Assembly (NCBI GenBank): GCA_017434855.1
Contig: JAFRUA010000048.1
Span: 1-34,273 of the forward strand
Direction: 5' to 3'
From: Clostridia bacterium
Lineage (GTDB): Bacteria; Bacillota; Clostridia; Oscillospirales; Acutalibacteraceae
Length of the DNA stretch: 34,273 nucleotides
Part shown: positions 201 to 15,060 of the stretch, piece by piece
Layout of the letters: every line of letters begins with the position of its first letter
How positions within the stretch are numbered: position 1 is the stretch's first letter
Translations under genes and position numbers: made by a program
The notes under the pieces: generated by a model
Databases searched by the model: none
The model's input: only the letters and a program-made list of their open reading frames with translations
What the model was told of the DNA's origin: nothing

Positions 201-229
201 TTGAAAAATGAGAAAAAATATGATATAGT
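201..229 (+). promoter_or_regulatory. SigA-type promoter of the metal/methyltransferase locus
   Basis: TTGAAA (201-206), a 17-base spacer and TATAGT (224-229). The first start codon is about 120 bases downstream. The -10 abuts the palindromic element at 229-247, so a repressor bound there would block the promoter. Confidence 0.6.
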
Positions 230-247
230 TAGCTAAGGCTAATTAGC
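229..247. promoter_or_regulatory. Putative DtxR/IdeR-type metal operator
   Basis: The 19 bases TTAGCTAAGGCTAATTAGC contain nested palindromes (TTAGCTAA and GCTAATTAGC). By eye they match 12 of 19 positions of the DtxR box as I remember it (TTAGGTTAGGCTAACCTAA). The element overlaps the transcription start of a locus that encodes a ZIP transporter and a metal-binding domain. The regulator itself is not in the window. Binding is inference. Confidence 0.5.
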
Positions 248-349
248 AAAGGATAACCAAGAATGTATGGCATTCCAAGGAGCAGAAAGGATATTCTTTT
301 TTGAAAAGTATATCCCCTGCATTCGAAAAAAGTGAATGAAGGCGTTCAG

Positions 350-1012
350 ATGACGATCGGTATGCCCATGGGTATGTGGGCACTTTATAAAGGATCGTTC
401 CAAAATCATCTGGTCTCCGTGCTCGGGTTCAAAGTTGAGGAGGCGGCAAGGGTCGCCGTCGCCGCAAAGCCGAAGTACAAGGAGATCATTGCAAAGCTGC
501 CGCCGTTTGAGAAAGGCGACCGATTTAAAATGAACATCGCGAACTGCGCCATGCTCGCCGCATTCCTTTTGAGTATGGACCAGAAGCCTGCCGTCGAGCC
601 GCTGACGCACTTTTACGCGCAGTCCATGATGAACGCGCCCACGCGCTGGTTTTGCCGGATGGAAGGCAAGCGTAAATTCAGCGACAGGAACGTTGCGGAC
701 ATGAAGGCGACCGCTGCTTTGAAGGCGGCCGAGCTTAATCCCTATTCCTGGAACATGGAATTCCTGCCTTATGCGGACGGCAGCGGCTACGAGGCGCGCT
801 TTTCCAAGTGCGGCATCTGCACACTGATGCGGGAGCTGGGGCTCTTTGATCTCGTTCCGGCGATGTGTCATCTGGACTACGATATGACCGACGCCGGCGG
901 AACTGCTGATTTTGTTCGCGAATTCACGCTGGCCTCTGGCGGGCCGTACTGCGACTGCGGATATATAAAGAAAGAAGGAAGAGACCATGATTCAAATAAC
1001 GCTGAAAATTGA
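350..1012 (+). CDS. L-2-amino-thiazoline-4-carboxylic acid hydrolase family protein
   Basis: This 220-residue protein resembles the ATC hydrolase family. The founding enzymes open the thiazoline ring of L-2-amino-thiazoline-4-carboxylate on the way to L-cysteine. Support comes from overall length, an SKCGICTL segment near the middle, a conserved Cys/Asp stretch (AMCHLDYD) and the ending SGGPYCDCGY. No signal peptide or membrane segment is seen, so it is probably cytoplasmic. I chose the ATG at 350 because AAGG lies about 8 bases before it; the frame also opens at a GTG at 332 with no ribosome site. It is first in the locus and overlaps the next gene by 26 bases, implying translational coupling. 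Many family members have no tested substrate. A neighbouring metallophore-type transporter suggests a thiazoline-containing ligand, but this is inference. Confidence 0.75.
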   Translation: MTIGMPMGMWALYKGSFQNHLVSVLGFKVEEAARVAVAAKPKYKEIIAKLPPFEKGDRFKMNIANCAMLAAFLLSMDQKPAVEPLTHFYAQSMMNAPTRWFCRMEGKRKFSDRNVADMKATAALKAAELNPYSWNMEFLPYADGSGYEARFSKCGICTLMRELGLFDLVPAMCHLDYDMTDAGGTADFVREFTLASGGPYCDCGYIKKEGRDHDSNNAEN

Positions 1013-1241
1013 CGGCATGATGTGCGGCATGTGTGAAGCGCACATCTGCGACACGATCCGGAACAGCGTGCCCGACGCGAAAAAAGTGGCGGCGTCCCAC
1101 ACCAGGGGCGAAGCAAGCTTTCTCTCAGAGACTGTACCCCGTGAGGATGTGCTTAAGGCAATGATCGACGCTACGGGCTATACGTTCGTTTCCATGACAA
1201 GCGCACCCTATGAAAAGAAAGGCTGGTTCCGCCGAAAATGA
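987..1241 (+). CDS. Heavy-metal-associated (HMA) domain protein
   Basis: This 84-residue protein has the HMA fold pattern: an N-terminal beta strand (IQITLKIDG) followed by MMCGMC, giving the metal-binding cysteines C13 and C16. It ends in a basic tail (KKGWFRRK). Known HMA proteins bind soft or transition metals such as Cu(I) or Zn(II) and pass them to transporters. It is a single free-standing domain without membrane segments, so it is likely a cytoplasmic chaperone or metal sensor-binder. A good ribosome site (GAAGGAAGAG) precedes the ATG. It overlaps the gene before by 26 bases and the ZIP transporter after by 4 (ATGA). That arrangement makes metal delivery to or from the ZIP protein a reasonable guess. 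Confidence 0.8.
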   Translation: MIQITLKIDGMMCGMCEAHICDTIRNSVPDAKKVAASHTRGEASFLSETVPREDVLKAMIDATGYTFVSMTSAPYEKKGWFRRK

Positions 1242-2017
1242 AAGACGTACTGCTGGGATTACTGATCCCGTTTCTCGGCACAAGCGCCGGTGCATGCTGT
1301 GTGTTCTTTATGAAAAAGGACCTGAGCCGGCCTGTGCAGCGCGCGCTCAACGGCTTTGCGGCGGGCGTGATGGTTGCCGCCTCGGTGTGGAGTCTGCTGA
1401 TCCCCGCGATGGAGCAATCCGCTGCCCTTGAACGGCTGGCGTTTTTGCCGGCCTTCTGCGGGTTCTGGTGCTGCATCGGCTTTTTGCTGCTGCTCGACCA
1501 TGTGATTCCGCATCTGCACCGCCGGGCGGGCAAGGCGGAAGGTCCGAAAAGCCGGCTGGCGCGCACCACAATGATGGTACTTGCTGTTACGCTTCATAAT
1601 ATTCCAGAAGGAATGGCGGTCGGCGTCGTATATGCAGGCCTTTTGAACGGTTCGGCGCAGATCACGGCGGGCGGTGCGCTGGCACTGTCCTTGGGCATTG
1701 CGATCCAGAACTTCCCGGAGGGGGCGATCATCTCCATGCCCTTGCACGCAGAAGGCAAACGAAAACCGGGCGCATTCGGCTATGGGGTGCTGTCCAGTGC
1801 GGTGGAGCCGCTGTTCGGGCTTTTGACCGTGCTGGCAGCCGGTTTGATCGTGCCGGCCATGCCGTATCTGCTCTCGTTTGCGGCAGGTGCCATGCTGTAT
1901 GTTGTGGTGGAAGAACTGGTGCCGGAGCTTTCTGCCGGGGAACATTCCCATATCGGCGTGCTGCTGTTTGCCGTCGGCTTTTCCGTGATGATGGCGCTGG
2001 ATGTGGCGCTTGGATAA
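1238..2017 (+). CDS. ZIP family metal transporter
   Basis: This 259-residue integral membrane protein belongs to the ZIP family, which moves Zn(II), Fe(II) or related divalent cations into the cytoplasm. The two signature metal-site helices are visible: HNIPEG at residues 120-125 and NFPEG at 158-162. They are flanked by hydrophobic segments spread over the whole length, about eight in total. A cytoplasmic loop with HLHRR (about residues 91-95) is histidine-containing, as is common between helices III and IV. The start overlaps the HMA gene stop (ATGA at 1238), so the two are translationally coupled. Its promoter region carries a DtxR-like palindrome, consistent with metal repression. The exact cation cannot be read from the sequence. 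Confidence 0.88.
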   Translation: MKDVLLGLLIPFLGTSAGACCVFFMKKDLSRPVQRALNGFAAGVMVAASVWSLLIPAMEQSAALERLAFLPAFCGFWCCIGFLLLLDHVIPHLHRRAGKAEGPKSRLARTTMMVLAVTLHNIPEGMAVGVVYAGLLNGSAQITAGGALALSLGIAIQNFPEGAIISMPLHAEGKRKPGAFGYGVLSSAVEPLFGLLTVLAAGLIVPAMPYLLSFAAGAMLYVVVEELVPELSAGEHSHIGVLLFAVGFSVMMALDVALG

Positions 2018-2039
2018 ACAAAAAGAAAGGAATGAAACG

Positions 2040-2882
2040 ATGGCTTATCACATTGAAAAAAACTCTGTGCAGGAAACGCTGGTGATCCCGCTGCTCGGTC
2101 GTGTGGTCTGTTCCGAACGGTTCCCGCAGCTCTTCACCGATCCGACGGCAAAGCGCATTTGCGACTCGCTGGATTATGACTTTTCGGCAAAACGAAAACT
2201 GATGGAATCTCCGCCGGGGCTTTTCGGTGCGCTGGAGGTTGCCCAGCGGCAGTTTGATCTGATGCAGGAGGTGCTGGACTATTTGAAAACGCACCCGAAA
2301 GCGGCGGTGGTCAACCTCGGCTGCGGGCTGGATGATACGTTTACCCGCGTGGACAACGGTCAGTGTAAAGGCTACAACCTCGACATGCCGGACGTGATCG
2401 AAGTCCGGAATGTTTTGCTCCCTGCCGCAGAACGCGAGCAGAACCTCGCCTGCGACCTCAACGACTTTTCGTGGATGGATCAGATCGACGCGGCAAACGG
2501 CGCAGTCTTCTTTGCCGCAGGGGTGTTCTATTATTTCAAAACCGAACAGATCAAAGCTCTGTTTTGCGAAATGGCAAACCGCTTTCCCGGCGCAACCCTT
2601 GCGTTCGACAGCTGCAACAAGCGCGGTGCAAAGATGATGGTGCGCACCTGGCTGAAAGAGGCCGGCATCACCGACGTCGGCGCCTTCTTCTCGCTGGAGG
2701 ATGAAGCTGTGCTGCGGACTTGGAGCAACGCCTTTGCTTCTGTCACAGCCAAAAGCTATATGCGCGGCTACCGCGACATCTATCATGACGTCGACGCATT
2801 CCACAAGCTGATGATCCGCTTCTGCGACAGTTTGGTGAAAATGAAAATTGTGAAGATTTGCTTCAGGGAGGCAGACTTATGA
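2040..2882 (+). CDS. Class I SAM methyltransferase, LCMT/TcmP-like
   Basis: This 280-residue protein looks like the leucine carboxyl methyltransferase/TcmP group of O-methyltransferases. The SAM-binding motif I is VVNLGCGLDDTFTR, followed by YNLDMPDVIEVR with the acidic residue at the end of strand 2. Characterised relatives methylate carboxylates or hydroxyls of small molecules and proteins. The ATG at 2040 is preceded by AAGAAAGG; the longer frame from 2001 lacks a site and overlaps the ZIP gene. It ends with an ATGA overlap into the next methyltransferase. It is the first of three consecutive methyltransferases that are not close copies of one another. The substrate is unknown. Confidence 0.82.
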   Translation: MAYHIEKNSVQETLVIPLLGRVVCSERFPQLFTDPTAKRICDSLDYDFSAKRKLMESPPGLFGALEVAQRQFDLMQEVLDYLKTHPKAAVVNLGCGLDDTFTRVDNGQCKGYNLDMPDVIEVRNVLLPAAEREQNLACDLNDFSWMDQIDAANGAVFFAAGVFYYFKTEQIKALFCEMANRFPGATLAFDSCNKRGAKMMVRTWLKEAGITDVGAFFSLEDEAVLRTWSNAFASVTAKSYMRGYRDIYHDVDAFHKLMIRFCDSLVKMKIVKICFREADL

Positions 2883-3664
2883 AACCTGATTACAAAAACT
2901 GGATGCCCAAGGGCATGGTATTGACCGCTGCGGCGGCGACTGCTGTGCTGCTGTTGCTTTTCGTTCTCTTCGGCTGCACGGGTGTTGTGTCAGGCACGCT
3001 GAAAACCGTATTGTTTATCGTTTTCCTGATCGGTACGGTGATCGGACTCGGCGTATCGCTTTGGATGATCTTCATGTACCGAGCGTTTTCCTACAACGGC
3101 AAACGGCAGATGTCGCGCCAGATCATTGAGGGAATCGCAAAGCATGTGCAGATTCCGGACGGCGGCAAGGGACTGGATGTCGGCTGTGGCAGCGGCGCGC
3201 TGACCATCGCCGTTGCCAAGCGCAACCCGAACGCGCAGATGGTCGGACTGGACCGCTGGGGCAAGGAATATGCCTCCTTCAACAAGCCGCTTTGCGAAAA
3301 CAACGCCAAAGCCGAAGGCGTCGGCAACACGTCCTTTGTGCAGGGCGATGCCACAAAGCTCGACTTCCCGGACGGAAGCTTTGACGCGGTAACGAGCAAT
3401 TACGTGTATCACAATATCCCCGGCGACCGGCAGGCGCTGCTGCTGGAAACGCTGCGTGTTTTGAAAAAGGGCGGAACGTTTGCGATCCACGACATCTTCT
3501 CCAAATCGAAATACGGCGATATGGGAGCGTTCGTTCAAACGCTGAAGGATATGGGTTACGAGAAGGTTGCACTGATCGATACCACAGATGGAAAATTCAT
3601 GTCTAAACGAGAAGCGATGTGGATGGAATTATCCGGATCCGCGCTGCTCGTTGGCAGAAAGTGA
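2879..3664 (+). CDS. Membrane-anchored class I SAM methyltransferase
   Basis: This 261-residue protein begins with two hydrophobic segments (about residues 13-34 and 42-66), then has a methyltransferase domain. Motif I is GLDVGCGSGALT, and a later DAVTSNYVYHNI motif is typical of the Methyltransf_11 type. The anchor places the catalytic domain at the inner membrane face, if the second segment returns the chain to the cytoplasm. The ATG overlaps the previous stop by 4 bases, with CAGGGAGG upstream. Together with its neighbours it suggests coupled methylation of a membrane-associated or imported small molecule. The substrate cannot be named. Confidence 0.82.
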   Translation: MKPDYKNWMPKGMVLTAAAATAVLLLLFVLFGCTGVVSGTLKTVLFIVFLIGTVIGLGVSLWMIFMYRAFSYNGKRQMSRQIIEGIAKHVQIPDGGKGLDVGCGSGALTIAVAKRNPNAQMVGLDRWGKEYASFNKPLCENNAKAEGVGNTSFVQGDATKLDFPDGSFDAVTSNYVYHNIPGDRQALLLETLRVLKKGGTFAIHDIFSKSKYGDMGAFVQTLKDMGYEKVALIDTTDGKFMSKREAMWMELSGSALLVGRK

Positions 3665-3671
3665 GGGACTT

Positions 3672-4298
3672 ATGGGATTACTCAACAGCTTTTTTAATCA
3701 GACAAGAAAACCCGAGGGCTTCCTCGGCAAGCTGATGGTCGGCGGCATGAACAGCGGGCACGCTGCGGTTGCGGATTGGGGCATGGCGTCCCTTTCCGAT
3801 TTGCAGCCGCAAACGATTCTGGACGTCGGCTGCGGCGGCGGGCGCAACATCGGCGCACTGCTCGACCGTTATTCGACCGCAACCGGTTTGGCCGTGGACT
3901 ATGCGCCGGTCAGCGTGGAAAAGAGCAAACGGCACAACCGGGCGTTGATCAATGCCGGGCGGTGCCGTGTCATACAGGCAGATGTATCAGCGCTGCCATT
4001 GGGAAGCGGGACTTTCGATCTGGTAACAGCGTTTGAAACGGTCTATTTTTGGCCGGGACTGCCGCGCTGCTTTGCCGAAGTCGCTCGTGTGCTGAAAAGC
4101 GGCGGCGCGTTCCTGATCGTCAACGAATCCGACGGCACCGACAAAACAGCAAAAAGGTTTGAATCCATCATCGACGGCATGACCTGCTATACGGCGCAGG
4201 ATCTGGAAACCGAGCTCAAAGCGGCGGGCTTTGCGAAGATCAACGTTATGACGCATGAAACCAAGCCGTGGCTGGCTGTGCTGGCAAGAAAGGGATGA
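3672..4298 (+). CDS. Class I SAM methyltransferase
   Basis: This 208-residue soluble methyltransferase has motif I at ILDVGCGGGRNIGALL, an acidic strand-2 end (GLAVDYAPVSVE), an IQADVSALPL motif II and FDLVTAFETVYFW, the usual Methyltransf_11 order. The start at 3672 follows GTGAGGGA and lies 7 bases after the preceding stop. The frame is open back to 3588 but that stretch overlaps the upstream gene. It is the third methyltransferase in a row. The three differ in length, topology and motifs, so recent tandem duplication is unlikely. Small-molecule methylation is the family expectation; the target is unknown. Confidence 0.83.
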   Translation: MGLLNSFFNQTRKPEGFLGKLMVGGMNSGHAAVADWGMASLSDLQPQTILDVGCGGGRNIGALLDRYSTATGLAVDYAPVSVEKSKRHNRALINAGRCRVIQADVSALPLGSGTFDLVTAFETVYFWPGLPRCFAEVARVLKSGGAFLIVNESDGTDKTAKRFESIIDGMTCYTAQDLETELKAAGFAKINVMTHETKPWLAVLARKG

Positions 4299-4302
4299 GC
4301 AT

Positions 4303-4794
4303 ATGCTGACAACGATCTTACTTACACTTATGATGATGGCAGGGCTTTTTCTGCTGCTGTATGCAGGCGTAGCCCTGATCCAGAACCCGCGTTTTTTCTC
4401 CTCCGCCCCGAAGGAGGTCTGCGCGGCGGTGCAGCCAAAGCCGGAGCGTTTCAAGGGCGCGCACTTTCTCGGCTGGCTTCTTGCAATCCTCGCGCTTTTG
4501 CTGATGGGCGGAGCTTTATTTCTCGGTGCATGGAACGGCATCCGGAACGGCTTCGGCTTTTGGCAGTTCTTCTTCCGCTTTCTGATCATGCTCTGGGGAC
4601 TGGAAGCATATGACATTCTGTTCTTCGATTATTACCTGCTGTGCCGCTCCCGCTTTTTTCCGCATTATTACCCCGAGGTGGAACAGCTCCTCGGCCCGCA
4701 TCTGTTTGGCTATAACTGGAAATCGCACCTGTTTGCGGGGCTTGTGATTCCCGCGGCGTGTTTGCTGCTGGCGCGGATCTGCACGCTGTTTTAA
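4303..4794 (+). CDS. Small integral membrane protein, function unknown
   Basis: I do not recognise a characterised family. The 163-residue protein has four hydrophobic segments (about residues 3-25, 55-80, 85-105 and 140-160). A loop after the third is rich in aromatic residues and carries the pattern DILFFDYYLLC. The start at 4303 is 4 bases after the preceding methyltransferase stop, so it is probably co-translated with it. There is no signal peptide. Location next to methyltransferases suggests a membrane partner or transporter accessory, but nothing in the sequence proves this. Confidence 0.7.
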   Translation: MLTTILLTLMMMAGLFLLLYAGVALIQNPRFFSSAPKEVCAAVQPKPERFKGAHFLGWLLAILALLLMGGALFLGAWNGIRNGFGFWQFFFRFLIMLWGLEAYDILFFDYYLLCRSRFFPHYYPEVEQLLGPHLFGYNWKSHLFAGLVIPAACLLLARICTLF

Positions 4795-4853
4795 CGAAAC
4801 AAAGGTCAAAAGCATTGCCCCTGCTCTTCTGCGTCGGGGCTTTCAAAAAGGAT

Positions 4854-4877
4854 AATGGTTAGCGAAAGCTAACCATT
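4854..4877. promoter_or_regulatory. Perfect palindrome upstream of the MptD/ABC genes
   Basis: AATGGTTAGC (4854-4863) and GCTAACCATT (4868-4877) are perfect inverted repeats around GAAA. The half site GGTTAGC resembles the DtxR half site and shares TTAGC/GCTAA with the element at 229-247. A weak -10 (GATAAT, 4851-4856) overlaps it, but no convincing -35 was found. It could be an operator or a stem-loop in the leader. Confidence 0.5.
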
Positions 4878-4910
4878 GAAACATCAATTTTATGAAAGAA
4901 GGTACAAAAC

Positions 4911-5483
4911 ATGAAGAAAAAAACTGTATGGCACATTTTGATCGCAGCCGTCATCTATCTCGGCTTGTTCCTGCTCGGCGCAACAAGCGGGCTGATCCAT
5001 CCTACCTGCTTTGCGTACATTGGAGTGGTTTTGCCGATTTTTTTCAGCTTCGTTTATCTTTACACGGCGGCAAATCTGCAATGCTTCGGTGCAGCGGCAA
5101 TTCTGAACGGTTTTGTTCTGATCATCGGATTGATTGCCGGAGAAGGTAATATCGCTCTGGTCGTCGGCATGATCGTTTTAGCAGTGATTGCAGAGCTGAT
5201 CAGAAAGTTTGCCGGTTATGATACGAAAAAGGGCGTCCGGCTCAGCTTTCTCCCGTTTGCCTATTCTTTCTTTGCCTATACGGCGCATTGGTGGACAGAC
5301 AAAGCCGGCTCTCTCGCTGCAGCCGCAGAAGAGATGCCGGCAGGTTATGCTGACAAGGTGGCGCAAGTGATTGAAAACATCCCTGTTTTGATCCTTGCCC
5401 TGGTTTTGACCCTTCCCGTCGCTGTTCTTGGAATGCTGCTTGCCGAAAAGGTGATGAAAAAGACGGCGGCCAAATTGAAATAA
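4911..5483 (+). CDS. MptD family putative ECF transporter S component
   Basis: This 190-residue membrane protein matches the MptD/Trep_Strep family. It has an N-terminal hydrophobic segment, a GLIHPTCFAYIG motif, several further membrane spans, and a conserved ending (VLGMLLAEKVMKK) seen in S components of energy-coupling-factor transporters. S components bind a small substrate in the membrane. Here no ECF T protein or paired ECF ATPases follow; two exporter-fold ABC half-transporters do instead, 18 bases downstream. The start is preceded by GAAAGAAGG. It begins the second half of the locus, behind the palindrome at 4854. The substrate is not known. Confidence 0.78.
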   Translation: MKKKTVWHILIAAVIYLGLFLLGATSGLIHPTCFAYIGVVLPIFFSFVYLYTAANLQCFGAAAILNGFVLIIGLIAGEGNIALVVGMIVLAVIAELIRKFAGYDTKKGVRLSFLPFAYSFFAYTAHWWTDKAGSLAAAAEEMPAGYADKVAQVIENIPVLILALVLTLPVAVLGMLLAEKVMKKTAAKLK

Positions 5484-5501
5484 AGAAAGGTGGGTTAACA
5501 C

Positions 5502-7304
5502 ATGAAAGAAAAGAAACAAAACGACGTTGCAGTTCTCCTGAACTATGCAGGAAAGTATAAGGTGCTGACCTTTTTGGGCATGTTCCTTTCTGCTGTTGCC
5601 ATGGTCATGGGCATGGTTCCCTACGTCTGCATCTGGCTCGCGGCAAGAGATCTGATCGAGGTCGCGCCGAACTGGACGCAGGCGACGGAGCTTGCCAAAT
5701 ACGGCTGGATGGCGTTCGGCTTTGCCTTCGGCGGCATCATCGTATATTTCGCCGCGCTGATGTGTACGCACCTTGCGGCGTTCCGCACTGCAGCGAATAT
5801 ACGCAAACAGGGCGTTGCTCACCTGATGAAAACGCCGCTCGGCTTCTTTGACAACAACGCGTCGGGACTGCTCCGCAACCGTCTGGACGGCGGCGCGGGA
5901 GAGACCGAAACGCTGCTTGCGCACAACCTTGCGGATGTCGTCGGAACGGCGGCGATGTTCATCGCCATGATCGTTCTGATGTTCGTCTTCGACTGGCGCA
6001 TGGGCGCGGCTTGTCTCGTCGCCGCCGTGATCTCCGTTCTTTCTATGTTCACGATGATGGGCGGCAAGAACGCGAAGCTGATGATGGAATATCAGCAGGC
6101 GCAGGACGTGATGAGCAAAGCCGGCACCGAATACGTGCGCGGGATCCCCGTCGTCAAGGTCTTTCAGCAGACGGTGTATTCCTTCAGGGCATTCAAGGCG
6201 GCGATCGAGGATTACAGCGCCAAAGCGGAAAAATATACCGGCGGCGTCTGCCGCGTTCCGCAGTCGGTCAACCTGACCGCAACGGAGGGAGTCTTCATCT
6301 TCCTTGTGCCCGCGGTGCTGTTGATTGCGCCGGGGGCGCTGAAGAGCGGCGATTTTGCGACGTTCATCACCAACTTCGCGTTTTATGCGGTGTTCTCGGC
6401 GATCGTGTCCACAGCGCTCGCCCGCATCATGTTCGCTTCTGCAGGTATGATGCTTGCAAAAACGGCGCTCGCCCGTATCGACACGGTCATGAATGCGCCG
6501 ATACTCCCCGTCACGGATCACCCGCAGACGCCGAAGGACAACGGCGTGGTGTTCAAAGACGTTACCTTTACTTATGACGGCGCGGATCTTCCGGCGCTTG
6601 ATCACGTTTCGTTCAAAGCCCTGCCCGGTCAGACAGTCGCGCTGGTCGGTCCTTCGGGCGGGGGAAAAACGACGGCGGCAAGTCTGATACCGCGCTTCTG
6701 GGACGTTTCCTCCGGCGAGTTGCTTGTCGGCGGCGTCAACGTGAAAGATGTCGATCCGCACGTTCTGATGGACAAAGTCGCGTTCGTATTCCAGAATACC
6801 CGCCTTTTCAAAACGTCGATCCTTGAAAACGTGCGCGCCGCGCGTCCGGACGTCTCAAGAGAGGAAGTCCTCACCGCTCTGCACGCGGCGCAATGCGACG
6901 ATATTATCGAAAAGCTCCCGAACGGAATCGATACGGTGATCGGCTCAAAGGGCACGTATCTTTCCGGCGGCGAGCAGCAGCGCGTGGCGCTGGCAAGAGC
7001 GATTCTGAAGGACGCGCCGATCATCGTTCTCGACGAGGCGACGGCGTTTGCCGATCCCGAAAACGAAGCGTTGATACAAAAAGCGCTGAAAACGCTGACG
7101 AAGGGACGCACGGTCGTCATGATCGCGCACCGGCTCTCGACCGTCGTCGGCGCCGACAGGATCGTTGTTCTTGATAACGGGAAAGTCGTCGAAGAGGGCA
7201 CGCACGAAGCGCTTGCCTCCGGCGGCGGGCTGTACGAGCGGATGTGGGAGGAATACAATCAGGCGGTACAATGGAAGATCGCCTCAGGTAAGGAGGGCGC
7301 TTGA
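5502..7304 (+). CDS. ABC half-transporter, fused permease and ATPase (first of pair)
   Basis: This 600-residue protein has a six-helix exporter-type membrane domain (about residues 1-320) and a nucleotide-binding domain. Walker A is GPSGGGKTT (383-391), the signature is LSGGE (487-491), Walker B is IIVLDEA, and the switch histidine is in IAHRLS. The D-loop reads AFAD rather than the usual SALD. From memory, siderophore transporters of the YbtP/Q and IrtA/B kind, which have an exporter fold but import ferric siderophores, show such a form. It is followed 1 base later by a second half-transporter, so the two probably form a heterodimer. AAGAAAGGTGG precedes the start. Import of a metal chelate is inferred from context; export remains possible. 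Confidence 0.88.
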   Translation: MKEKKQNDVAVLLNYAGKYKVLTFLGMFLSAVAMVMGMVPYVCIWLAARDLIEVAPNWTQATELAKYGWMAFGFAFGGIIVYFAALMCTHLAAFRTAANIRKQGVAHLMKTPLGFFDNNASGLLRNRLDGGAGETETLLAHNLADVVGTAAMFIAMIVLMFVFDWRMGAACLVAAVISVLSMFTMMGGKNAKLMMEYQQAQDVMSKAGTEYVRGIPVVKVFQQTVYSFRAFKAAIEDYSAKAEKYTGGVCRVPQSVNLTATEGVFIFLVPAVLLIAPGALKSGDFATFITNFAFYAVFSAIVSTALARIMFASAGMMLAKTALARIDTVMNAPILPVTDHPQTPKDNGVVFKDVTFTYDGADLPALDHVSFKALPGQTVALVGPSGGGKTTAASLIPRFWDVSSGELLVGGVNVKDVDPHVLMDKVAFVFQNTRLFKTSILENVRAARPDVSREEVLTALHAAQCDDIIEKLPNGIDTVIGSKGTYLSGGEQQRVALARAILKDAPIIVLDEATAFADPENEALIQKALKTLTKGRTVVMIAHRLSTVVGADRIVVLDNGKVVEEGTHEALASGGGLYERMWEEYNQAVQWKIASGKEGA

Positions 7305-7305
7305 A

Positions 7306-9048
7306 ATGATGGGAAGGAAGCTTCAAAAGAAATACGCGCTGACCGATAAGGGTTTAAGAAACACGAGAGTCGGCGCAGCATGGACGGTCGTCGTCAACCT
7401 GCTTATGATGGCGGGAATGGGCATCCTGTATTTCCTGATGCAAAAGTATATGCATACGCTCACGGGCGGCGACGCCCTCCCGAATGCCTGGATCTTTATC
7501 GCACTGGTCGCGGCATTCGTCGTGCTGTCTTTTATCACCCATCTGCAGCAGTATCATAACACCTACGGTTTGGTATACAGAGAAATCAAGGATACGCGGA
7601 TCACGCTTGCGGAACGGCTTCGCAGGCTTCCGCTCGGCTATTTCGGAAAACGCGACCTTGCCGATCTGACCGAAACGATCATGGGCGACGTCAACCGCCT
7701 GGAACACGTCTGGTCTCACTGCCTCGGCTATCTTTACGGCGCTTATATCTCCACGGCGATTATAGCGGTGATGCTGTTCGTTTACGACTGGCGCATGGCG
7801 CTGGCCTGCCTGTGGGGCGTGCCGGTGGCGTTCGCGCTTCTCTTCGGCAGCAGAAAGATGCAAAAGCGTGCCTCCGAAAAACTGAAATCCGACGCTCTGG
7901 CGGTGTCCGACAACATTCAGGAATCGCTTGAGAATATCCGCGAGATCCGGGCGACCAACCGCGAAAAAGAATACTTGGATCGCCTTTACAAAAAGATCGA
8001 CTGTGTTGAAAAAACGATGAGAAACGGTGAGCTCATGATCGGTCTGTTTGTCAACGGCGCTTCCGTGATCATGCGTCTCGGTGTGGCAACGACGATCCTG
8101 ACGGGTGCTTCGCTTATCCTCTCCGGAAAGATCGATTTTATGCTGATGTTCATGTTCCTGATGGTCATCACCCGCATTTACGCGCCGTTTGATCAGTCGC
8201 TGGCTCTGATTGCCGAAATGCTCGTTTCCCAGGTTTCGGCGAATCGTCTGAACGAGATCAATGATACGCCGACTGCGGAGGGTGCCGAAGTGTTCCGGCC
8301 CGACGGTCACGATATCACATTTGAAGACGTCAGCTTCGCTTACGACGATCACGACGTGCTGAACGGCGTGAGCTTCACTGCCAAAGAGGGAGAAGTCACT
8401 GCGCTTGTCGGCCCGTCCGGCTCCGGCAAAAGCACCTGCGCCCGTCTTACCGCGCGCCTGTGGGATATCAACGGCGGAAAAATAAAGGTCGGCGGCGTGG
8501 ACATTTCGACCGTCGACCCGGAGGTGCTGCTCACCGATTATTCGATGGTATTTCAGGACGTTGTTCTCTTTGACGACACCGTTATGGAGAACATTCGCCT
8601 CGGCAAACACGGTGCGACAGACGAGGAAGTCCTCGCGGCAGCAAAAGCGGCGAATTGCGACGAGTTCGTCGAAAAACTCCCGGACGGTTATCAAACCCCG
8701 ATCGGAGAAAACGGCGCAAGACTTTCCGGCGGCGAGCGCCAGCGCATTTCAATTGCCCGCGCTCTGTTAAAAAACGCGCCGATCGTACTTCTTGACGAGG
8801 CGACGGCCTCCCTTGACGTGGAAAACGAAACGAAGGTGCAGGGCGCACTGTCGCGCCTGCTGGCGGGCAAGACCGTGCTTGTCATCGCCCACCGGATGCG
8901 CACCGTCGAGGCGGCGGATAAGATCGTCGTCTTAAAGGACGGCAAGATCGCCGAGGAAGGCTCGCCGAAAGAGCTTTATATCAACGAAAACGGTATCTTC
9001 CGCCGTATGGCGGACCTGCAGGCGCAAAGCGCACAGTGGCGCGTGTAA
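7306..9048 (+). CDS. ABC half-transporter, fused permease and ATPase (second of pair)
   Basis: This 580-residue protein is the likely dimer partner of the previous one. It has a six-helix membrane domain, then Walker A GPSGSGKS (369-376), signature LSGGE (from 473), Walker B IVLLDEA with a D-loop ASLD, and switch histidine in IAHRMR. The start was set at the first ATG (7306), with AGGAGGG 9 bases before it; the frame is open much further upstream but overlaps the partner gene. Both ATPase sites look catalytically complete, unlike many heterodimeric exporters with one degenerate site. It is the last gene of the locus; decayed non-coding DNA follows. Confidence 0.88.
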   Translation: MMGRKLQKKYALTDKGLRNTRVGAAWTVVVNLLMMAGMGILYFLMQKYMHTLTGGDALPNAWIFIALVAAFVVLSFITHLQQYHNTYGLVYREIKDTRITLAERLRRLPLGYFGKRDLADLTETIMGDVNRLEHVWSHCLGYLYGAYISTAIIAVMLFVYDWRMALACLWGVPVAFALLFGSRKMQKRASEKLKSDALAVSDNIQESLENIREIRATNREKEYLDRLYKKIDCVEKTMRNGELMIGLFVNGASVIMRLGVATTILTGASLILSGKIDFMLMFMFLMVITRIYAPFDQSLALIAEMLVSQVSANRLNEINDTPTAEGAEVFRPDGHDITFEDVSFAYDDHDVLNGVSFTAKEGEVTALVGPSGSGKSTCARLTARLWDINGGKIKVGGVDISTVDPEVLLTDYSMVFQDVVLFDDTVMENIRLGKHGATDEEVLAAAKAANCDEFVEKLPDGYQTPIGENGARLSGGERQRISIARALLKNAPIVLLDEATASLDVENETKVQGALSRLLAGKTVLVIAHRMRTVEAADKIVVLKDGKIAEEGSPKELYINENGIFRRMADLQAQSAQWRV

Positions 9049-9168
9049 GGCTTCATAAAGGAGAAACGGATATCTGGATCGTCGGCGCGGCGCTCACAGC
9101 GGGGATTATTAGGAATGGCTAAAATCTGCATTCTAAAACTGTGCAGGATGACAACGAAAGGGCAAACG

Positions 9169-9196
9169 AAAACCACCGGTAAAAACCGATGGTTTT
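9169..9196. repeat. CCACCGGT palindrome, imperfect copy 2
   Basis: AAAACCACCGGT and ACCGATGGTTTT form a stem with one mismatch and an A-rich loop. The core matches the elements at 139-163 and 21876-21900. It lies about 120 bases after the ABC gene and may serve as its terminator. Confidence 0.5.
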
Positions 9197-9267
9197 GATT
9201 CATTAGGTTTACACAATCATTCCTTTTTATCTTTGCCCTTCATTTCCCTGTAGATAATATAGTCGGG

Positions 9268-9290
9268 TTTCCTCTTTTGTCAAGAGGAAA
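9268..9290. repeat. Perfect 9-bp hairpin
   Basis: TTTCCTCTT (9268-9276) and AAGAGGAAA (9282-9290) pair perfectly around TTGTC. It lies between the end of the ABC gene and the end of the deacetylase remnant on the other strand. A role as a terminator is not clear, because no good T tract follows on either strand. Confidence 0.4.
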
Positions 9291-9460
9291 GAGAAAATTT
9301 GTTCGATAAATTTCATTTTGCAGTCCAAAAAAGTGCTTAAGAATAAATGTTAGCGTTAATGATGAAGCAAAACCTACGCAGACGGGTGCACTTCTCCACG
9401 GTTTTTCCTCCCGCCCATCGCGCCGGACGCGGCCGTGACGTTTCTTTTATGTGTTTATTT

Positions 9461-9727
9461 TCAGAAAAACAGCGGTTCCTCGCCTCTGTGCATCCGGAAG
9501 GCGTCGCCGATGGAGCAGCAGATCACATCGTCGCGGCCGGACACCATCCGGCAGATTTTCTCAAACTTTTGCCAGTTGCTCTCTTTGGTACCGAAATTGA
9601 ATTCATATCCATGCGCGAACATCAGAAAGAACAGATCACCTGTCTCCGGTTTTGCGTCAAGGAACGCCTGCAGCCTTTGCAGCGCGTTCTTTTTCACGTG
9701 CCAGCTTGTCATCGGCAGCGCCGGACG
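9461..9727 (-). pseudogene. C-terminal remnant of a polysaccharide deacetylase family gene
   Basis: The frame is open for 89 codons from a stop at 9728-9730 to a stop at 9461. It encodes LPMTSWHVKK, then FAHGYEF, then SGRDDVICCSIGDAF. This is the end of the NodB-like deacetylase family, where a conserved H-[SG]-YEF segment and GRDD stretch close the domain. A full protein would need 150 or more further residues at the N-terminus. I find no continuation in the other minus frames up to 10000, so the gene is truncated rather than simply frameshifted. The catalytic Asp/His motifs are missing. It could be a relic of a surface-glycan deacetylase. Confidence 0.6.
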
Positions 9728-10009
9728 TCACCCCCTGCGCTCCGCCAAAACCACAAAAGCGGATCAACCTTTGATTTAAAAGAGCTGTTTGAGGAATTCC
9801 TTATTGCAAAGCAGCATGTCAAATCTTTTATCATATTGAAGCAAAAACGCTTGATAAAACGTACGGTTCGTGATAAGATAAACTTATGATTCTGTACACT
9901 TTTGTTTTTCGCCTTTCAACCGTCTGAAAAGCAGAAGACTTGCGGAATCAAACGTCATGCGAGCCGTGATGAATGAGACCGGCAGGCAAAAAAATAGAGG
10001 GAGATGAAG

Positions 10010-10963
10010 ATGATGTCCGCTGTAAAAACGATACTCAAAGCCGGCGTCGGCGCTGCGGCCGCAGTGATGGGCGCAGGGGCGCTGGTGTATGAATGCGCGC
10101 TGAACACAAAGTTGAACGGCTTTTTCGTCAATCTGCTTGATGACCGCAGCGACGTGGAGCAGGAGGCACCATCCGGGGACGGAGTCAATCCGCGTGAACC
10201 CGGTTGGTTCGACCGACACAAGGGGGACGATCAGGTGATCACCACCGAGGCAACCGGTCGGATCCACGCGTATATCATCCCAGCGGAAAAGCCGTCGCAC
10301 AAATGGGCGATTCTCTGCCATGGCTATAACTCCGAGCCGGCATCCGTCGGCGTGTTTGCGGAGCATTACCGCCCGCTGGGCTATCACTGCATCTGCCCCT
10401 CGCTGCGCGGCTGGGGCAACGATGAAAAACGGTACTGCACGATGGGCTTCCATGACAAGGACATTCTGCTCGCATGGATCAATTACGTTGTGAAGGAGGA
10501 TCGGGACGCCGAGATCCTTCTGCACGGGTATTCCATGGGCGCCGTAACCATAATGCTTGCCACCGGTGAAAAGCTGCCGCCGCAGGTGAAGGCGGCTGTT
10601 TGCGACTGCGGCTTCACAAGCTGCTGGGAACAGTATGCGAACGTGATCAAGCTTTATGCAAAGCTTCCGGCGTTTCCGCTGCTTTACGCCGTGAATGCGA
10701 TGTCCATCCTGCGCGGAAATTTCGACATCCGTAAAAACGTGCCGATCGACGCCGTAAGGCGAAGCGTGACCCCCACGGTATTCCTGCACGGCACGGCGGA
10801 TAACTTTGTGCCGTTTGCCATGATGGACCGGCTGTATGACGCCTGCGCCGCACCGAAGACGAAGCAGGACATTAAAGGCGCGGATCACGCGCAGTCGGTA
10901 TATGTCGACCCGGCGCTGTACTGGAAAACGGTCGACGGTTTTTTGAAGGATAAAATATCATAA
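10010..10963 (+). CDS. Membrane-anchored alpha/beta hydrolase
   Basis: This 317-residue alpha/beta-hydrolase has the complete triad: nucleophile S175 in GYSMGA, D264 in HGTADNF and H293 in GADHAQS. An oxyanion-side motif (CHGYNSEP) comes early in the domain. An N-terminal hydrophobic segment (about residues 5-25) looks like a signal anchor, so the domain is probably outside the cell. GAGGGAG lies directly before an ATG at 10004. I prefer the ATG at 10010 because spacing is more normal; 10004 and 10013 are alternatives. Family relatives are esterases or peptidases with unknown natural substrates. It stands alone between decayed DNA and the promoter at 11058. Confidence 0.8.
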   Translation: MMSAVKTILKAGVGAAAAVMGAGALVYECALNTKLNGFFVNLLDDRSDVEQEAPSGDGVNPREPGWFDRHKGDDQVITTEATGRIHAYIIPAEKPSHKWAILCHGYNSEPASVGVFAEHYRPLGYHCICPSLRGWGNDEKRYCTMGFHDKDILLAWINYVVKEDRDAEILLHGYSMGAVTIMLATGEKLPPQVKAAVCDCGFTSCWEQYANVIKLYAKLPAFPLLYAVNAMSILRGNFDIRKNVPIDAVRRSVTPTVFLHGTADNFVPFAMMDRLYDACAAPKTKQDIKGADHAQSVYVDPALYWKTVDGFLKDKIS

Positions 10964-11057
10964 CGTGAAGCAAAAGCGATGCGCATTGCAGCTCTCCCCT
11001 TTTGTCTCACCTCAATTGCAGCACTGCACGTTGGCCGTATCTTGACCGCGGAACACC

Positions 11058-11086
11058 TTGAAAACATTGCGAAAGATTGTTATAAT
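11058..11086 (+). promoter_or_regulatory. SigA-type promoter of the aconitase X operon
   Basis: TTGAAA (11058-11063), a 17-base spacer and TATAAT (11081-11086). It lies 164 bases before the aconitase X start. The long leader (about 11095-11249) shows no regulatory RNA class I can name. Confidence 0.7.
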
Positions 11087-11249
11087 TAGATATGGGCAAA
11101 GGCCAAAACCGAAAAGTACAGTCAAACGAAAGATCAGGTGCGCTGCGTCAATTGATGCAGCCTGACAATAAAACCTGCATCGCGCTCAAACACCCTTTGT
11201 TTTCAGAAGTGTCCAATTCACAACACAGCAACAAAAGGAGGAATTTATT

Positions 11250-12521
11250 ATGCAACTGACAAAAGAACAACAGGCCATTCTGAATGGCGAAAAAGGCGAA
11301 ACAATAGCAAAGGTCATGCGCACGCTCGTGCAGTACGGCGAAGTCTTCGGCGCCGAAAAGATGGTACCCGTAACCGGCGATTACGGCCATCTGGTGCTCT
11401 CGTTCGGGCTGACCTTCCTGGGCCCGGTCTTTGATCTCTATCAAAAGCTGATCGACGAAGGGTGCCTTTCGGGGCAGAAATTCACCTGCGACCCGCGGCC
11501 GTATGACAAAAACGTGCCGCAGTCGCTGATTCAAAAGGCGGTTGCAAAGTTCGTCTTCGGCAAGCAAAGCCGCTATGAAAAGCAGCTTTCGCAACTCGGC
11601 CTTCTGGATGAAGACAGCTATACCTGCACCTGTTATCTGGACGAGATCGGCAACACGCCAAAGGCGGGCGACGTGCTCTCCTGGGCGGAATCGTCGGCGG
11701 TCGTCTATGCCAACTCGGTGCTCGGCGCGCGCTGCAACCGCAACTCCGGCATCATCGAACTGTTTGGTTCCATTGCAGGCTTTGTGCCGTATTTCGGTCT
11801 GCTGACCGACGAGGGGCGCAAGGCGGACTGGATTGTGGAGCTGAAAACGACCAAATGCCCCGACGCGCAGATCCTCGGCTCCGCCATCGGCATGAAGGTG
11901 ATGGAGGACGTGCCTTATGTCAAGGGGCTGGACCGGTATCTCGGCACGGAACTGACCGATGAAGCAAAGACCTATCTCAAGGATTTCGGCGCCGCCACGG
12001 CGTCCAACGGCGCGGTGGGCCTGTATCACATCGACCGCCTGACGCCGGAAGCCAAAGCGCAGGGCGAAGCTCTCATCAAGGAAGGCGCAAACGTCTATGT
12101 GATCGACGACGCGGAGCTGGAGCGCGTGAAGAACGGCTATCCCTGCGTCTGGAAAAACAAGGACGCCGCGCCGAAGCTCTGCTTCCTCGGCTGCCCGCAT
12201 ATGACGCTGCAGCAGCTCAAGGACTGGACCGACAAGATCGAGGCCGCGCTCAAAGAAGCCGGCAACGAAAAGGTGCTGATCCCGACGGTATTCACCACAT
12301 CCACGGGCGTGATGAAGGAATTTGAAAAAACGCCTTATGCCGCACGGCTGAAACGGGCGGGCGTCATCGTCAGCTATATCTGCCCGCTGATGTTTATGGA
12401 CAACCCGCTGTGGCAGGGCCAGCCGGTTATCACCTCGTCAAACAAGCTGCGCACCTACACGACGGCGCGGTTCTATTCCAACGACGAGATTTTGCGCATC
12501 ATCACAAAGGAGGGAAAATAA
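11250..12521 (+). CDS. Aconitase X large (catalytic) subunit
   Basis: This 423-residue protein is the catalytic chain of two-subunit aconitase X (formerly DUF521). It begins with the typical MQLTKEQQAILNGEKG and contains GARCNRNSG and the late segment FTTSTGV. Characterised aconitase X enzymes are Fe-S dehydratases: bacterial cis-3-hydroxy-L-proline dehydratase and archaeal mevalonate-5-phosphate dehydratase. The separate swivel subunit follows 1 base later, so this is a type II arrangement. AAAGGAGG precedes the start. No archaeal-type mevalonate genes are nearby, and the operon partner is a flavin ene-reductase, so the substrate is open. A hydroxy acid or hydroxyproline-like compound is the most reasonable class. 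Confidence 0.88.
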   Translation: MQLTKEQQAILNGEKGETIAKVMRTLVQYGEVFGAEKMVPVTGDYGHLVLSFGLTFLGPVFDLYQKLIDEGCLSGQKFTCDPRPYDKNVPQSLIQKAVAKFVFGKQSRYEKQLSQLGLLDEDSYTCTCYLDEIGNTPKAGDVLSWAESSAVVYANSVLGARCNRNSGIIELFGSIAGFVPYFGLLTDEGRKADWIVELKTTKCPDAQILGSAIGMKVMEDVPYVKGLDRYLGTELTDEAKTYLKDFGAATASNGAVGLYHIDRLTPEAKAQGEALIKEGANVYVIDDAELERVKNGYPCVWKNKDAAPKLCFLGCPHMTLQQLKDWTDKIEAALKEAGNEKVLIPTVFTTSTGVMKEFEKTPYAARLKRAGVIVSYICPLMFMDNPLWQGQPVITSSNKLRTYTTARFYSNDEILRIITKEGK

Positions 12522-12522
12522 G

Positions 12523-12963
12523 ATGAAGGAATTCAAAGGACGCGTGATCGCAAAGGGCGCACTGACGGCTGAAGCAGTCGTGACGAAGCAGGGCTTCAAC
12601 ACGCTGGCAAGCATGCAGATGATGTTCATTCAGTCAAAGACCAAGTGCGTGGATCAAAGCAACCCCGACCTTTATAAAAAGCTGCTGCAGGGCAAGGCGC
12701 TCTGCCTGCCCCAGACCATCGGCTCCACCACGGGCGGCATGTTCCTGTATTCCGCCGTCAAATCCGGCAAGGCGCCGGCGTGCCTGCTGTTTGCAAAGGA
12801 GATCGATTCGCTGGCCGCGGCCGGCGCGGTGCTGGCCGACGTGTGGTCTGATGACGCAAAAATGCCCACCATCGACAAGCTCGGCGACGAATTTCTCGAC
12901 TATGTGCAGGACGGTGACAAAATCACCGTGAAGGAAGACGGCACCGTGATCGTGGAGCGGTAA
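12523..12963 (+). CDS. Aconitase X small (swivel domain) subunit
   Basis: This 146-residue protein is the swivel-domain partner (formerly DUF126) of the preceding large subunit. The conserved GSTTGGMFL loop, followed by GKAPACLL, corresponds to the serine-rich substrate-gating loop of aconitase X small subunits. The start at 12523 lies 1 base after the large-subunit stop, with GGAGG just upstream, consistent with 1:1 production. The chain ends in a beta-rich segment (GDKITVKEDGTVIVER), usual for the family. It has no role without the large subunit. Confidence 0.88.
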   Translation: MKEFKGRVIAKGALTAEAVVTKQGFNTLASMQMMFIQSKTKCVDQSNPDLYKKLLQGKALCLPQTIGSTTGGMFLYSAVKSGKAPACLLFAKEIDSLAAAGAVLADVWSDDAKMPTIDKLGDEFLDYVQDGDKITVKEDGTVIVER

Positions 12964-13005
12964 CTCATTACGGAGTAACCGGAACAAGAAAAGGAGATAT
13001 CACTT

Positions 13006-15060
13006 ATGAAAAAAGAGTATGCATCCCTGTTGACGCCCTGGAAGATCGGCAATGTCGAAATCAAAAACAGAATCGTGCTGACCTCGATGGGTGGAACAAA
13101 TCTGCTGGGCTGGATGGAAAAGAACCACTTTGACAAGGAAGGCGCAAGGTTTATCCTGGAGGTTGCCAAAAACAACGCCGGGCTTGTGCTGCCCGGCTGC
13201 CAGCCGGTCTATAACCCCATGCTTGGCCAGTGGCTGCACAAAAACAAAAAGATGTTTCGGGATCTGGCTGCATGGATGCCGGAATTCCATCAAACGGGCG
13301 CAAAGCTGTTTGTGCAGTTGACGGCAGGCTTTGGCCGCAGCTTTACCATCTCACCGATGATGGAGATGCTGTATTCAAACAAGGCGCTGCGCGTGCTGTC
13401 AAAGCCGTTTATGGATCTGGACAGGATCACGGCCTCTGCCAGTCCGTCTCCCAACCGCTGGTCAGACAAAGTGCCGTCAAGAGAAATGACGAAGGCGGAA
13501 ATTCAGGAAATCATCGACTCGTTTGCGCAATGTGCAAAGCTCCTGAAGGACGCCGGCGTGGACGGCGTTGAGATTCACGCCGTGCATGAGGGCTATCTGC
13601 TGGACCAGTTCACGCTCAACTATGTGAACAAGCGGACGGACGAATACGGCGGCAGCCTGGAGAACAGATATCGCTTTGCGGCCGAGATCGTGAAAGCGAT
13701 CAAGCAGGAATGCGGCAGCGACTTTCCCGTTTCACTGCGCTATTCCGTGGTGTCCAAGACCAAGGGCATGCGTGAAGGCGCTCTGCCCGGCGAAGACTAT
13801 ACGGAAGTCGGCCGAGATATGGCGGAATCGGAAGAAGCGGTCCGGTTCCTGCAGGATGCGGGCTATGACATGCTCAACTGCGACAACGGGACCTATGACG
13901 CGTGGTACTGGGCGCATCCGCCCGTGTATATGCCGGAAAACTGCAATCTGGAAGACGTGCAGCACATCAAGCAGTTCGTCGATATTCCCGTGGTCTGTGC
14001 GGGCCGGATGACGCTGGACGCCGCCGCAAAGGCGATCGAAAACAACACGCTGGACGGCGCCGGCTTTGCCCGCAATTTCCTGGCCGACCCCGCCTGGTTC
14101 ACAAAGGTGATCGAGGACCGGGAGAAAGACATCCGCCCCTGCATCCTCTGCCACAACGGCTGCTTCAACATGTGCCACTACAAGGGCGTGCCGAACGAGC
14201 AGGAGCTGAGCGATTCGCTCCACCTTGCCCGGTGCGCCGTCAACGCGGAAATGATGCAGTGGAAAAAGCATTACATCAAAAAAACCGCTTCGCCCAGAAC
14301 GGTACATATCGTCGGCGGCGGAATCGGCGGCATGGAGGCTGCACGCGTGCTGAAGCTCCGCGGACACAACCCGGTGATCTATGAAAAGACTTCTGTGCTC
14401 GGCGGCACGTTTATCCCCGCTTCGTCCGAAAGCTATAAAAGCAAGCTCCGGGACCTGCTGACATGGTACCGCCGGGAGATGGACAAGCTGCAGATCACCG
14501 TCAAGCTCAACACAGAGATCACCGACCTCACGCAGTTCGGCAGCGATCCCGTGATCGTCGCAACAGGCGCAAAGCCGCGCGTGCTGCGCAGCGTGAAGGG
14601 CTTTGAAAAAATGATCGAGGCGTGCGACTATCTCAACGGCGCGCCCGTGGGGCACAGCGTCGCAGTGATCGGCGGCGGCCTGACGGGGTGCGAGATCGCC
14701 TATGAGCTTGCGCTGCAGGGCAAGGACGTGAAGATCGTTGAGATGAAAGACGACCTGGTTTCGCAAAAGGGCGTCTGCCTTGCAAACAGCTCGTATCTTC
14801 GCGAATGGTTCGCCTGGAAGCAGGTGCCGATATATCTGGAAAGCACGCTGAAAGAGGTCCGCGACGGCGGCATCGTCTGCACAGGCAAAGACGACAAGGA
14901 CTTTGAGATCCCGTGTGAAAGCGTGATCTCTTCGGCCGGCTATGTGCCCGCGCCGATCGCGCAAAAGAATAAAAACGTCTTCCTTGTCGGCGACTGCAGC
15001 GCCGTGGGGAACCTCAGAACCGTCATCTGGCAGGCCTACGAGACCGCGATGAAGCTGTGA
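13006..15060 (+). CDS. Old yellow enzyme family ene-reductase with Fe-S and FAD/NAD domains (BaiCD/FadH-like)
   Basis: This 684-residue three-domain flavoenzyme has an FMN TIM barrel (about 1-375), a 4Fe-4S site (C379, C382, C386 and C410) and FAD and NAD(P) Rossmann folds (VGGGIGGMEAA near 430, VIGGGLTGCEIA near 555). Barrel residues H191 and H194 lie in VEIHAVHEGYLLDQF, a form I associate with clostridial enoate reductases and bile-acid BaiCD/BaiH proteins rather than E. coli FadH. Such enzymes reduce or form C=C bonds next to a carbonyl. It follows aconitase X by 42 bases with AAGGAG upstream. A dehydratase followed by an ene-reductase is a logical pair: water loss, then reduction. The substrate is not determinable. 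Confidence 0.85.
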   Translation: MKKEYASLLTPWKIGNVEIKNRIVLTSMGGTNLLGWMEKNHFDKEGARFILEVAKNNAGLVLPGCQPVYNPMLGQWLHKNKKMFRDLAAWMPEFHQTGAKLFVQLTAGFGRSFTISPMMEMLYSNKALRVLSKPFMDLDRITASASPSPNRWSDKVPSREMTKAEIQEIIDSFAQCAKLLKDAGVDGVEIHAVHEGYLLDQFTLNYVNKRTDEYGGSLENRYRFAAEIVKAIKQECGSDFPVSLRYSVVSKTKGMREGALPGEDYTEVGRDMAESEEAVRFLQDAGYDMLNCDNGTYDAWYWAHPPVYMPENCNLEDVQHIKQFVDIPVVCAGRMTLDAAAKAIENNTLDGAGFARNFLADPAWFTKVIEDREKDIRPCILCHNGCFNMCHYKGVPNEQELSDSLHLARCAVNAEMMQWKKHYIKKTASPRTVHIVGGGIGGMEAARVLKLRGHNPVIYEKTSVLGGTFIPASSESYKSKLRDLLTWYRREMDKLQITVKLNTEITDLTQFGSDPVIVATGAKPRVLRSVKGFEKMIEACDYLNGAPVGHSVAVIGGGLTGCEIAYELALQGKDVKIVEMKDDLVSQKGVCLANSSYLREWFAWKQVPIYLESTLKEVRDGGIVCTGKDDKDFEIPCESVISSAGYVPAPIAQKNKNVFLVGDCSAVGNLRTVIWQAYETAMKL

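Follow-up and report, generated by a model that had tools for sequence, protein, structure and literature searches.

The window analysed here is the 34,273-nucleotide contig JAFRUA010000048.1 of the Clostridia bacterium genome GCA_017434855.1 (Acutalibacteraceae, probably of rumen or gut origin), and comprises all of contig C39 of that genome, an assembly of 2.74 Mb in 77 contigs that is 97.9% complete. Ten open frames, all on the forward strand, were found at 332-9048 and named from the frame list with Pfam and NCBIfam. They form a tight seven-gene run (350-4794) and, after a gap of about 116 bp, a second run (4911-9048) encoding an MptD-type protein and two ATP-binding cassette (ABC) half-transporters, ABC1 and ABC2. 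DtxR-type boxes, palindromes of the pattern TTAG-N6-CTAA, lie before both runs; the gene set recurs in related genomes, and the boxes are shared with iron genes. The features are listed below, with the number of loci containing homologues among the 84 compared further on.

201..229, forward strand: promoter-like site TTGAAA-17-TATAGT, a consensus match only
229..242, no strand assigned: DtxR-type box TTAGCTAAGGCTAA at the end of the -10 hexamer, a pattern match
350..1012, forward strand: ATCh, a PF14196 (ATC_hydrolase) protein; start moved from 332 after orthologues
987..1241, forward strand: HMA metal-binding protein (Pfam); 41 of 84 loci
1238..2017, forward strand: ZIP-family (ZupT-like) transporter (Pfam, NCBIfam); 30 of 84 loci
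2040..2882, forward strand: LCM-type methyltransferase; start moved from 2001; 55 of 84 loci
2879..3664, forward strand: MTa, class I methyltransferase (Methyltransf_11) with a hydrophobic N-terminal segment (Pfam and orthologues); 40 of 84 loci
3672..4298, forward strand: MTb, class I methyltransferase (Methyltransf_11); start moved from 3588; 36 of 84 loci
4303..4794, forward strand: small helical membrane protein that matches no family; start moved from 4255; 39 of 84 loci
4859..4872, no strand assigned: DtxR-type box TTAGCGAAAGCTAA before MptD, within a 10-bp perfect inverted repeat (4854-4877), a pattern match
4911..5483, forward strand: MptD/Trep_Strep S component of the energy-coupling factor (ECF) type (Pfam, NCBIfam); orthologue matches in 3 of 87 loci, window included
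5502..7304, forward strand: ABC1 half-transporter (ABC_membrane and ABC_tran), YbtP/IrtA-like (Pfam and PDB ranking)
7306..9048, forward strand: ABC2 half-transporter (ABC_membrane and ABC_tran), YbtQ/IrtB-like; start moved by eye from 7165
9109..9122, no strand assigned: weak, imperfect box TTAGGAATGGCTAA beyond ABC2, a pattern match with no clear gene after it, which may be chance or a relic

The original prediction had described this locus as a candidate for the uptake and processing of a metal chelate, and the gene content that it listed was found again, with the families as named by Pfam and NCBIfam. The PF14196 profile scored 73.3 bits on ATCh, against a cut-off of 28.1, and the HMA profile scored 22.7 bits, slightly below its cut-off of 24.8. 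Comparison with orthologues placed the starts of ATCh at about 350, LCM at 2040, MTa at 2879, MTb at 3672 and the small membrane protein at 4303; the start of ABC2 is more likely at 7306-7309, as judged by eye without an alignment. Tight packing with overlaps had also been claimed, and it held in part: ATCh and HMA overlap by 26 bp, and HMA and ZIP, like LCM and MTa, by 4 bp, but several other overlaps were the product of over-long start calls. The remaining intergenic gaps are about 1-22 bp, and the sole break, at 4795-4910 upstream of MptD, contains its own palindromic box.

Three boxes were counted in the window, where 0.13 were expected. The whole genome contains ten: three in the window, two on contig C52, and one each on C57, C72, C40, C67 and C76. 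The box on C57 is upstream of feoB, and that on C72 is upstream of a NuoE-like gene. What is unusual about these boxes is their placement, not their number: by our own post hoc arithmetic, the chance that three of ten random sites fall within one 9-kb stretch is about 4 in a million. A DtxR-family gene is present in the same genome (PF02742, 55.3 bits). In Streptococcus equi, the operator of the equibactin repressor EqbA contains the TTAG-N6-CTAA pattern, and EqbA binding is reported to depend on metal and on the palindrome (PMC3672683). The boxes common to this locus and feoB suggest iron control of the locus; iron is likely to be the metal concerned, and we infer that it is also the signal. 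The metal link is stronger than in the original prediction, which had proposed it from gene content. A stand-alone HMA paralogue was also seen at C52:3769-4120 (locus L015), where the DNA is 85% identical to the HMA gene of the window and two tandem boxes lie directly upstream.

Recurrence of the gene set was examined in a collection of species genomes, a scan of which gave 392 relatives; the best 80 of the 392 were examined. By their record titles these were Clostridia, Oscillospiraceae, Ruminococcaceae, Lachnospiraceae, Erysipelotrichaceae, Solobacterium and a small number of other groups, and most were bins from metagenomes. PF14196 was the search anchor and is present in all 80 loci by construction. 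Of the seven families of the first run, one was found in 9 loci, two in 11, three in 12, four in 21, five in 12, six in 11 and all seven in 4. In other words, at least four of the seven families occurred in 48 of these 80 best-matching loci and at least one family beside PF14196 in 71, leaving 9 with the anchor alone. Among the 38 loci of at least 15 kb, 29 contained at least four families. The commonest close pairs in the 80 loci were ATCh-HMA (26) and HMA-ZIP, ZIP-LCM and HMA-LCM (13 each); gene order was otherwise mostly shuffled between loci. Judged from these neighbourhoods, the association of the gene set exceeds chance, and the cassette is real and recurrent. Conservation of the order in other Clostridia had been proposed as a check, with its absence named in advance as a sign against the prediction; the set recurs, but the order does not.

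The distribution of the cassette is patchy. When 150 genomes of the family were searched with the PF14196 protein, nine gave a match, five of them (this genome included) at E<1e-90; within the genus, 2 of 21 further genomes did so. An alignment search with the LCM methyltransferase matched 21 of the 150 genomes, seven at E<1e-100. Four of these seven are among the five strong PF14196 carriers, and in the fifth carrier, G060, a fragment of LCM lies at the edge of a contig. One carrier, Lachnospiraceae bacterium GAM79 (L108, a complete genome), is to judge by its record title an isolate; of the seven families, its locus contained just PF14196 and MTb.

Open frames were then clustered over 84 loci, namely the best 80, L039, L042, L043 and the window; L036-L038 were dropped as duplicates of L057, L097 and L111. 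Contig ends truncate many of the loci, which makes the counts lower bounds, and some loci are near-identical (L076 and L077). Further families that recurred were a fourth methyltransferase (52 loci), a second small membrane protein that matches no family (42), a metallo-beta-lactamase-fold protein (31), ABC half-transporters (21), DUF3793 (20), a ketopantoate-reductase-like protein (18), two groups of DUF6796 (17 and 12), DUF6110 (14), a P-type ATPase (12), a FeoB-associated protein (8), two groups of FeoA (8 and 8), a DtxR-type repressor (8), flavodoxin (7), TetR (7), a PEMT-like protein (7) and FeoB (5). FeoA, FeoB, DtxR, flavodoxin and the DUF6110/P-type ATPase pair recur adjacent to the cassette. 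Family names were checked by Pfam on one representative each; the second FeoA group and the FeoB proteins of the relatives were named by eye. Groups of PF14196 paralogues in 13, 11 and 5 loci were confirmed on a representative, and another, in 22 loci, was assigned from weak BLAST similarity. Hydrolase-like groups in 18 and 17 loci were named by Pfam, and those in 21 loci (for which Pfam gave nothing) and 10 loci (which had no Pfam scan) were named by eye.

Two variant clusters were seen among the relatives. At L043, positions 6521-13832 hold a distant version (LCM 29% and PF14196 24% identical) with two boxes, and this version may travel on a mobile element, because a MobL relaxase gene adjoins it. 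At positions 1289-2912 of L156 (contig C18 of genome G135), part of the G135 cluster is present again as an incomplete copy, 93-95% alike and with two boxes.

To the right of the cluster in the window is an aconitase X gene (PF04412, 11250-12521) that was matched in 18 of the 20 other same-genus genomes searched, at 90-95% identity in the six nearest, which supports the assignment of the contig to this genome. The left neighbours of aconitase X differed in the five genomes read closely, so that no empty site could be demonstrated, and we claim no island boundary. An alpha/beta hydrolase gene at 10004-10963 was left out of the parts of the cassette, as it was found in only 2 of 87 loci (window counted); a stretch 88% identical to it lies near the G158 cluster.

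The boxes were likewise found in the relatives. In 83 related loci (1.23 Mb) the pattern occurred 154 times, in 62 of the loci. In the same sequences, ten first-order Markov shuffles gave about 7 occurrences (range 2-12), five patterns of like make-up gave 3-16, and altered spacers gave none at lengths of 5, 7 and 8, 4 at a length of 4 and 14 at a length of 10. Placement was tested on 153 boxes in 82 loci (L077 was also dropped). Of these, 129 lay at most 300 bp upstream of the start of a recurrent gene, compared to 22% for random positions, and a single box lay inside a recurrent gene, compared to 44%. DUF3793 was the family most often next downstream (24 of the 129). An arrangement of DUF3793 and flavodoxin behind tandem boxes was seen repeatedly, in L072, L049, L058, L065, L088, L102, L122 and others.

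The box has an extended form, GTTAGC-N4-GCTAAC. When six carriers were searched whole for GTTAG-N6-CTAAC, there were 1-22 sites per genome and 0-3 for the reversed control. Four of the six had this long box at the PF14196 locus (2 of 7 sites in G043, 2 of 2 in G060, 4 of 8 in G098 and 3 of 22 in G135). Twelve further stretches, covering 22 of the long-box sites, were read. Three contained FeoA/FeoB, two flavodoxin with DUF3793, one a TetR gene with an ABC pair, one a lone ZIP gene and one the second partial cluster copy; in the other four, nothing of the iron-gene or cassette kind was seen by the long box. The sites before the lone ZIP gene and the TetR-ABC-ABC group indicate that the ZIP gene and the ABC pair carry the box even when they stand apart. 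In G098 an HMA gene lies at the end of the Feo operon.

The two ABC proteins were ranked against all solved structures, using the best 60 of 259 matches for ABC1 and the best 60 of 262 for ABC2. Among the matches listed, the top overall for both were full-length P-glycoprotein-type chains, scored as two summed stretches. Among the half-transporters listed, ABC1 matched 6p6i chain A (taken as YbtP) at 300 bits, IrtA at 293 and MsbA at 262, and ABC2 matched YbtQ at 285, 6p6i chain A at 252, IrtB at 248, TM288 at 243 and Sav1866 at 232. A control half-transporter from the same genome matched Sav1866 at 181 and TM288 at about 178 bits, with no siderophore importer in the best 60 of its 128 matches. 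The best NCBIfam models for the two halves were MsbA-type, all far under cut-off. In this ranking, which is not the phylogeny originally called for, the ABC halves best match YbtPQ and IrtAB among solved half-transporters, which favours the likeness originally proposed; the two exporter-fold halves are also encoded side by side, as in those systems.

The structural model of the PF14196 protein, built from 73 sequences, had a predicted local distance difference test score (pLDDT) of 93. Nearly all of the 50 Foldseek matches listed were H-NOX, TRAPP, guanylate-cyclase and MopR/PoxR domains, with a best E of 0.004 and template-modelling (TM) scores of about 0.3-0.4; none of the 50 reached E<0.001. 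C152, C171, D174 and R188 were invariant in the 73 sequences. The fold is thus predicted to be weakly akin to H-NOX, V4R and TRAPP domains. PF14196 has already been linked to HNOB and V4R through three shared cysteines (PMC5847659), and in PMC8401325 a tetrapyrrole-cluster gene, tolI, is placed in PF14196. For ATCh, "thiazoline hydrolase" is a family name only, and the substrate cannot be named from the fold. The original prediction had drawn a link to thiazoline chelates from that name; the link is not supported here, and the breakdown of thiazoline siderophores was set aside as the specific function.

Known routes to a chelator were also searched. As originally stated, nonribosomal peptide synthetase (NRPS) genes were absent from the locus (proteins of 332-9048). 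No NRPS-independent siderophore (NIS) synthetase of the IucA/IucC type was found in any of seven carriers, five of which had condensation-domain matches, three of these in the genome of the window. No nicotianamine-synthase-like protein or opine dehydrogenase was named when the ten locus proteins were scanned with Pfam, in which no opine-directed search was included. No description of this gene set was recognised in the literature searched. By type, the enzymes resemble tailoring or cleaving ones, and these would fit a ligand that is imported and then processed a little better than one that is synthesised. At C62:24117-30731 (L144, 12118-18732) the genome also encodes a 2204-aa NRPS with the domains A-PCP-C-A-reductase, beside a gene that is MATE-like by eye, and no box was found in the 36 kb read there.

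The reading that we favour, tentatively and at a little under an even chance, is that of a cassette for iron starvation, by which a metal chelate would be imported and then either dismantled or capped by methylation. It would consist of two adjacent, probably iron-repressed units, ATCh-HMA-ZIP-LCM-MTa-MTb-small membrane protein and MptD-ABC1-ABC2, both belonging to a DtxR/IdeR-type iron-starvation regulon in which the repressor would leave the TTAG-N6-CTAA boxes when iron is scarce. The ABC pair of YbtPQ/IrtAB type, perhaps with the MptD S component, would take in a metal chelate that other organisms produce, and ZIP and HMA would handle the freed metal. The PF14196 protein may bind or open the ligand, and the methyltransferases may cap its metal-binding groups so that the metal could not be retaken; in relatives, additional alpha/beta- and metallo-beta-lactamase-fold hydrolases may contribute. 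We infer the direction of transport, the substrate and the capping role.

Several observations weigh against this reading. The ten boxes in the genome are no excess, as by our own arithmetic the rate expected for the window scales up to about ten and the reversed control pattern occurs 31 times, and the three boxes on C40, C67 and C76 have no evident iron gene alongside. In two of the six carriers, G153 and G158, both of the same genus as this genome, no long box lies at the locus (0 of 1 site each), and in G158 the reversed control (3) exceeds the long-box count (1). No EcfA or EcfT is encoded beside MptD among the ten locus proteins, and both are present in the relative G135. An ABC half-transporter of this family was near only 21 of the 84 loci, many of them cut by contig ends. 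In the equibactin system, EqbHIJ is reported to be required for import, and the YbtPQ-like EqbKL is dispensable and may export (PMC3672683), so that the direction of transport cannot be read from likeness. The import and dismantling of a foreign chelate, the core of the original prediction, is carried forward here as a tentative proposal.

The main rival, somewhat unlikely in our judgement, is biosynthesis, in which the methyltransferases, the PF14196 protein and the hydrolase- and reductase-like enzymes of the relatives would build a non-NRPS metal ligand under iron starvation, to be exported by the ABC pair or re-imported by it as the complex. The resemblance of the recurrent families to tailoring enzymes, the iron boxes at the loci and the failure to find a known chelator route (no NIS synthetase in seven carriers, and the long NRPS gene of this genome far from any box) are consistent with this, but no backbone-forming enzyme was recognised among the families scanned and gene content differs strongly between loci. 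A broader statement, about equally doubtful, would embrace both making and neutralising: a widespread pathway by which gut and rumen anaerobes respond to iron starvation, with V4R-like PF14196 proteins and several methyltransferases that produce or inactivate a metal ligand, NRPS and NIS enzymes having no part in it, and with a coupling to transport of the YbtPQ type. Such a pathway would be a chemistry of metallophore use not described before.

It is unlikely that the enzymes instead remodel membrane lipids, quinones or another component and so cut the demand for iron, with ABC transport separate and co-controlled. The hydrophobic N-terminal segment of MTa, the recurrence of small membrane proteins (39 and 42 of 84 loci), the PEMT/ICMT-like protein in 7 of 84 and the boxes of flavodoxin, a classic iron-sparing protein, would agree with such remodelling, but ZIP, HMA and FeoA/FeoB in the same neighbourhoods indicate metal handling, and no role in lipids is evident for the hydrolases or the PF14196 proteins. 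A conventional function of the ABC pair in drug or peptide export, among unrelated accessory genes, is quite unlikely: the P-glycoprotein-type chains at the top of the listed matches and the MsbA-type models point that way, but YbtPQ and IrtAB rank first among the half-transporters listed, and an iron box immediately precedes the MptD-ABC unit, while another precedes an ABC pair elsewhere. More improbable again is the uptake and processing of haem or another metal tetrapyrrole for iron, with the PF14196 protein binding the macrocycle and the carboxyl methyltransferase acting on its side chains. The domains ranked first for the PF14196 model and the published relations to HNOB, V4R and tolI (PMC5847659, PMC8401325) would suit it, but the matches listed are weak, the fold serves many ligands and no known haem-degrading enzyme was named among the families scanned.

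Iron acquisition by strict gut anaerobes without recognised siderophore genes is poorly understood, and the cassette may help related anaerobes to obtain iron. Its boxes allow a prediction of the conditions under which it is expressed, its carriers include named ones, and its enzymes form a defined group for assay. If the cassette makes or destroys chelators, the reading of chelator sharing in the gut from genomes would change, and the family name of PF14196 would mislead.

Among known systems, the Feo and DUF6110/P-type ATPase neighbourhoods recur beside the cassette, and Feo genes have the same boxes; to our knowledge, neither neighbourhood as described includes methyltransferases or PF14196 proteins. 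With YbtPQ and IrtAB the locus shares exporter-fold heterodimeric half-transporters that match best subunit by subunit among the solved half-transporters listed, but it is without siderophore genes. The equibactin locus of S. equi (eqbA-N) differs in that equibactin is made by NRPS proteins encoded in the locus (PMC3672683), whereas the locus described here encodes no NRPS and has methyltransferases, PF14196, HMA and ZIP in its place. It is alike in the TTAG-N6-CTAA operator of its DtxR-like repressor and in its EqbHIJ permease/ATPase importer, which lies beside a fused ABC pair similar to YbtP/YbtQ. A comparable arrangement is present in the relative G135, where a CbiQ-ABC-ABC fusion, MptD and the ABC pair are encoded side by side.

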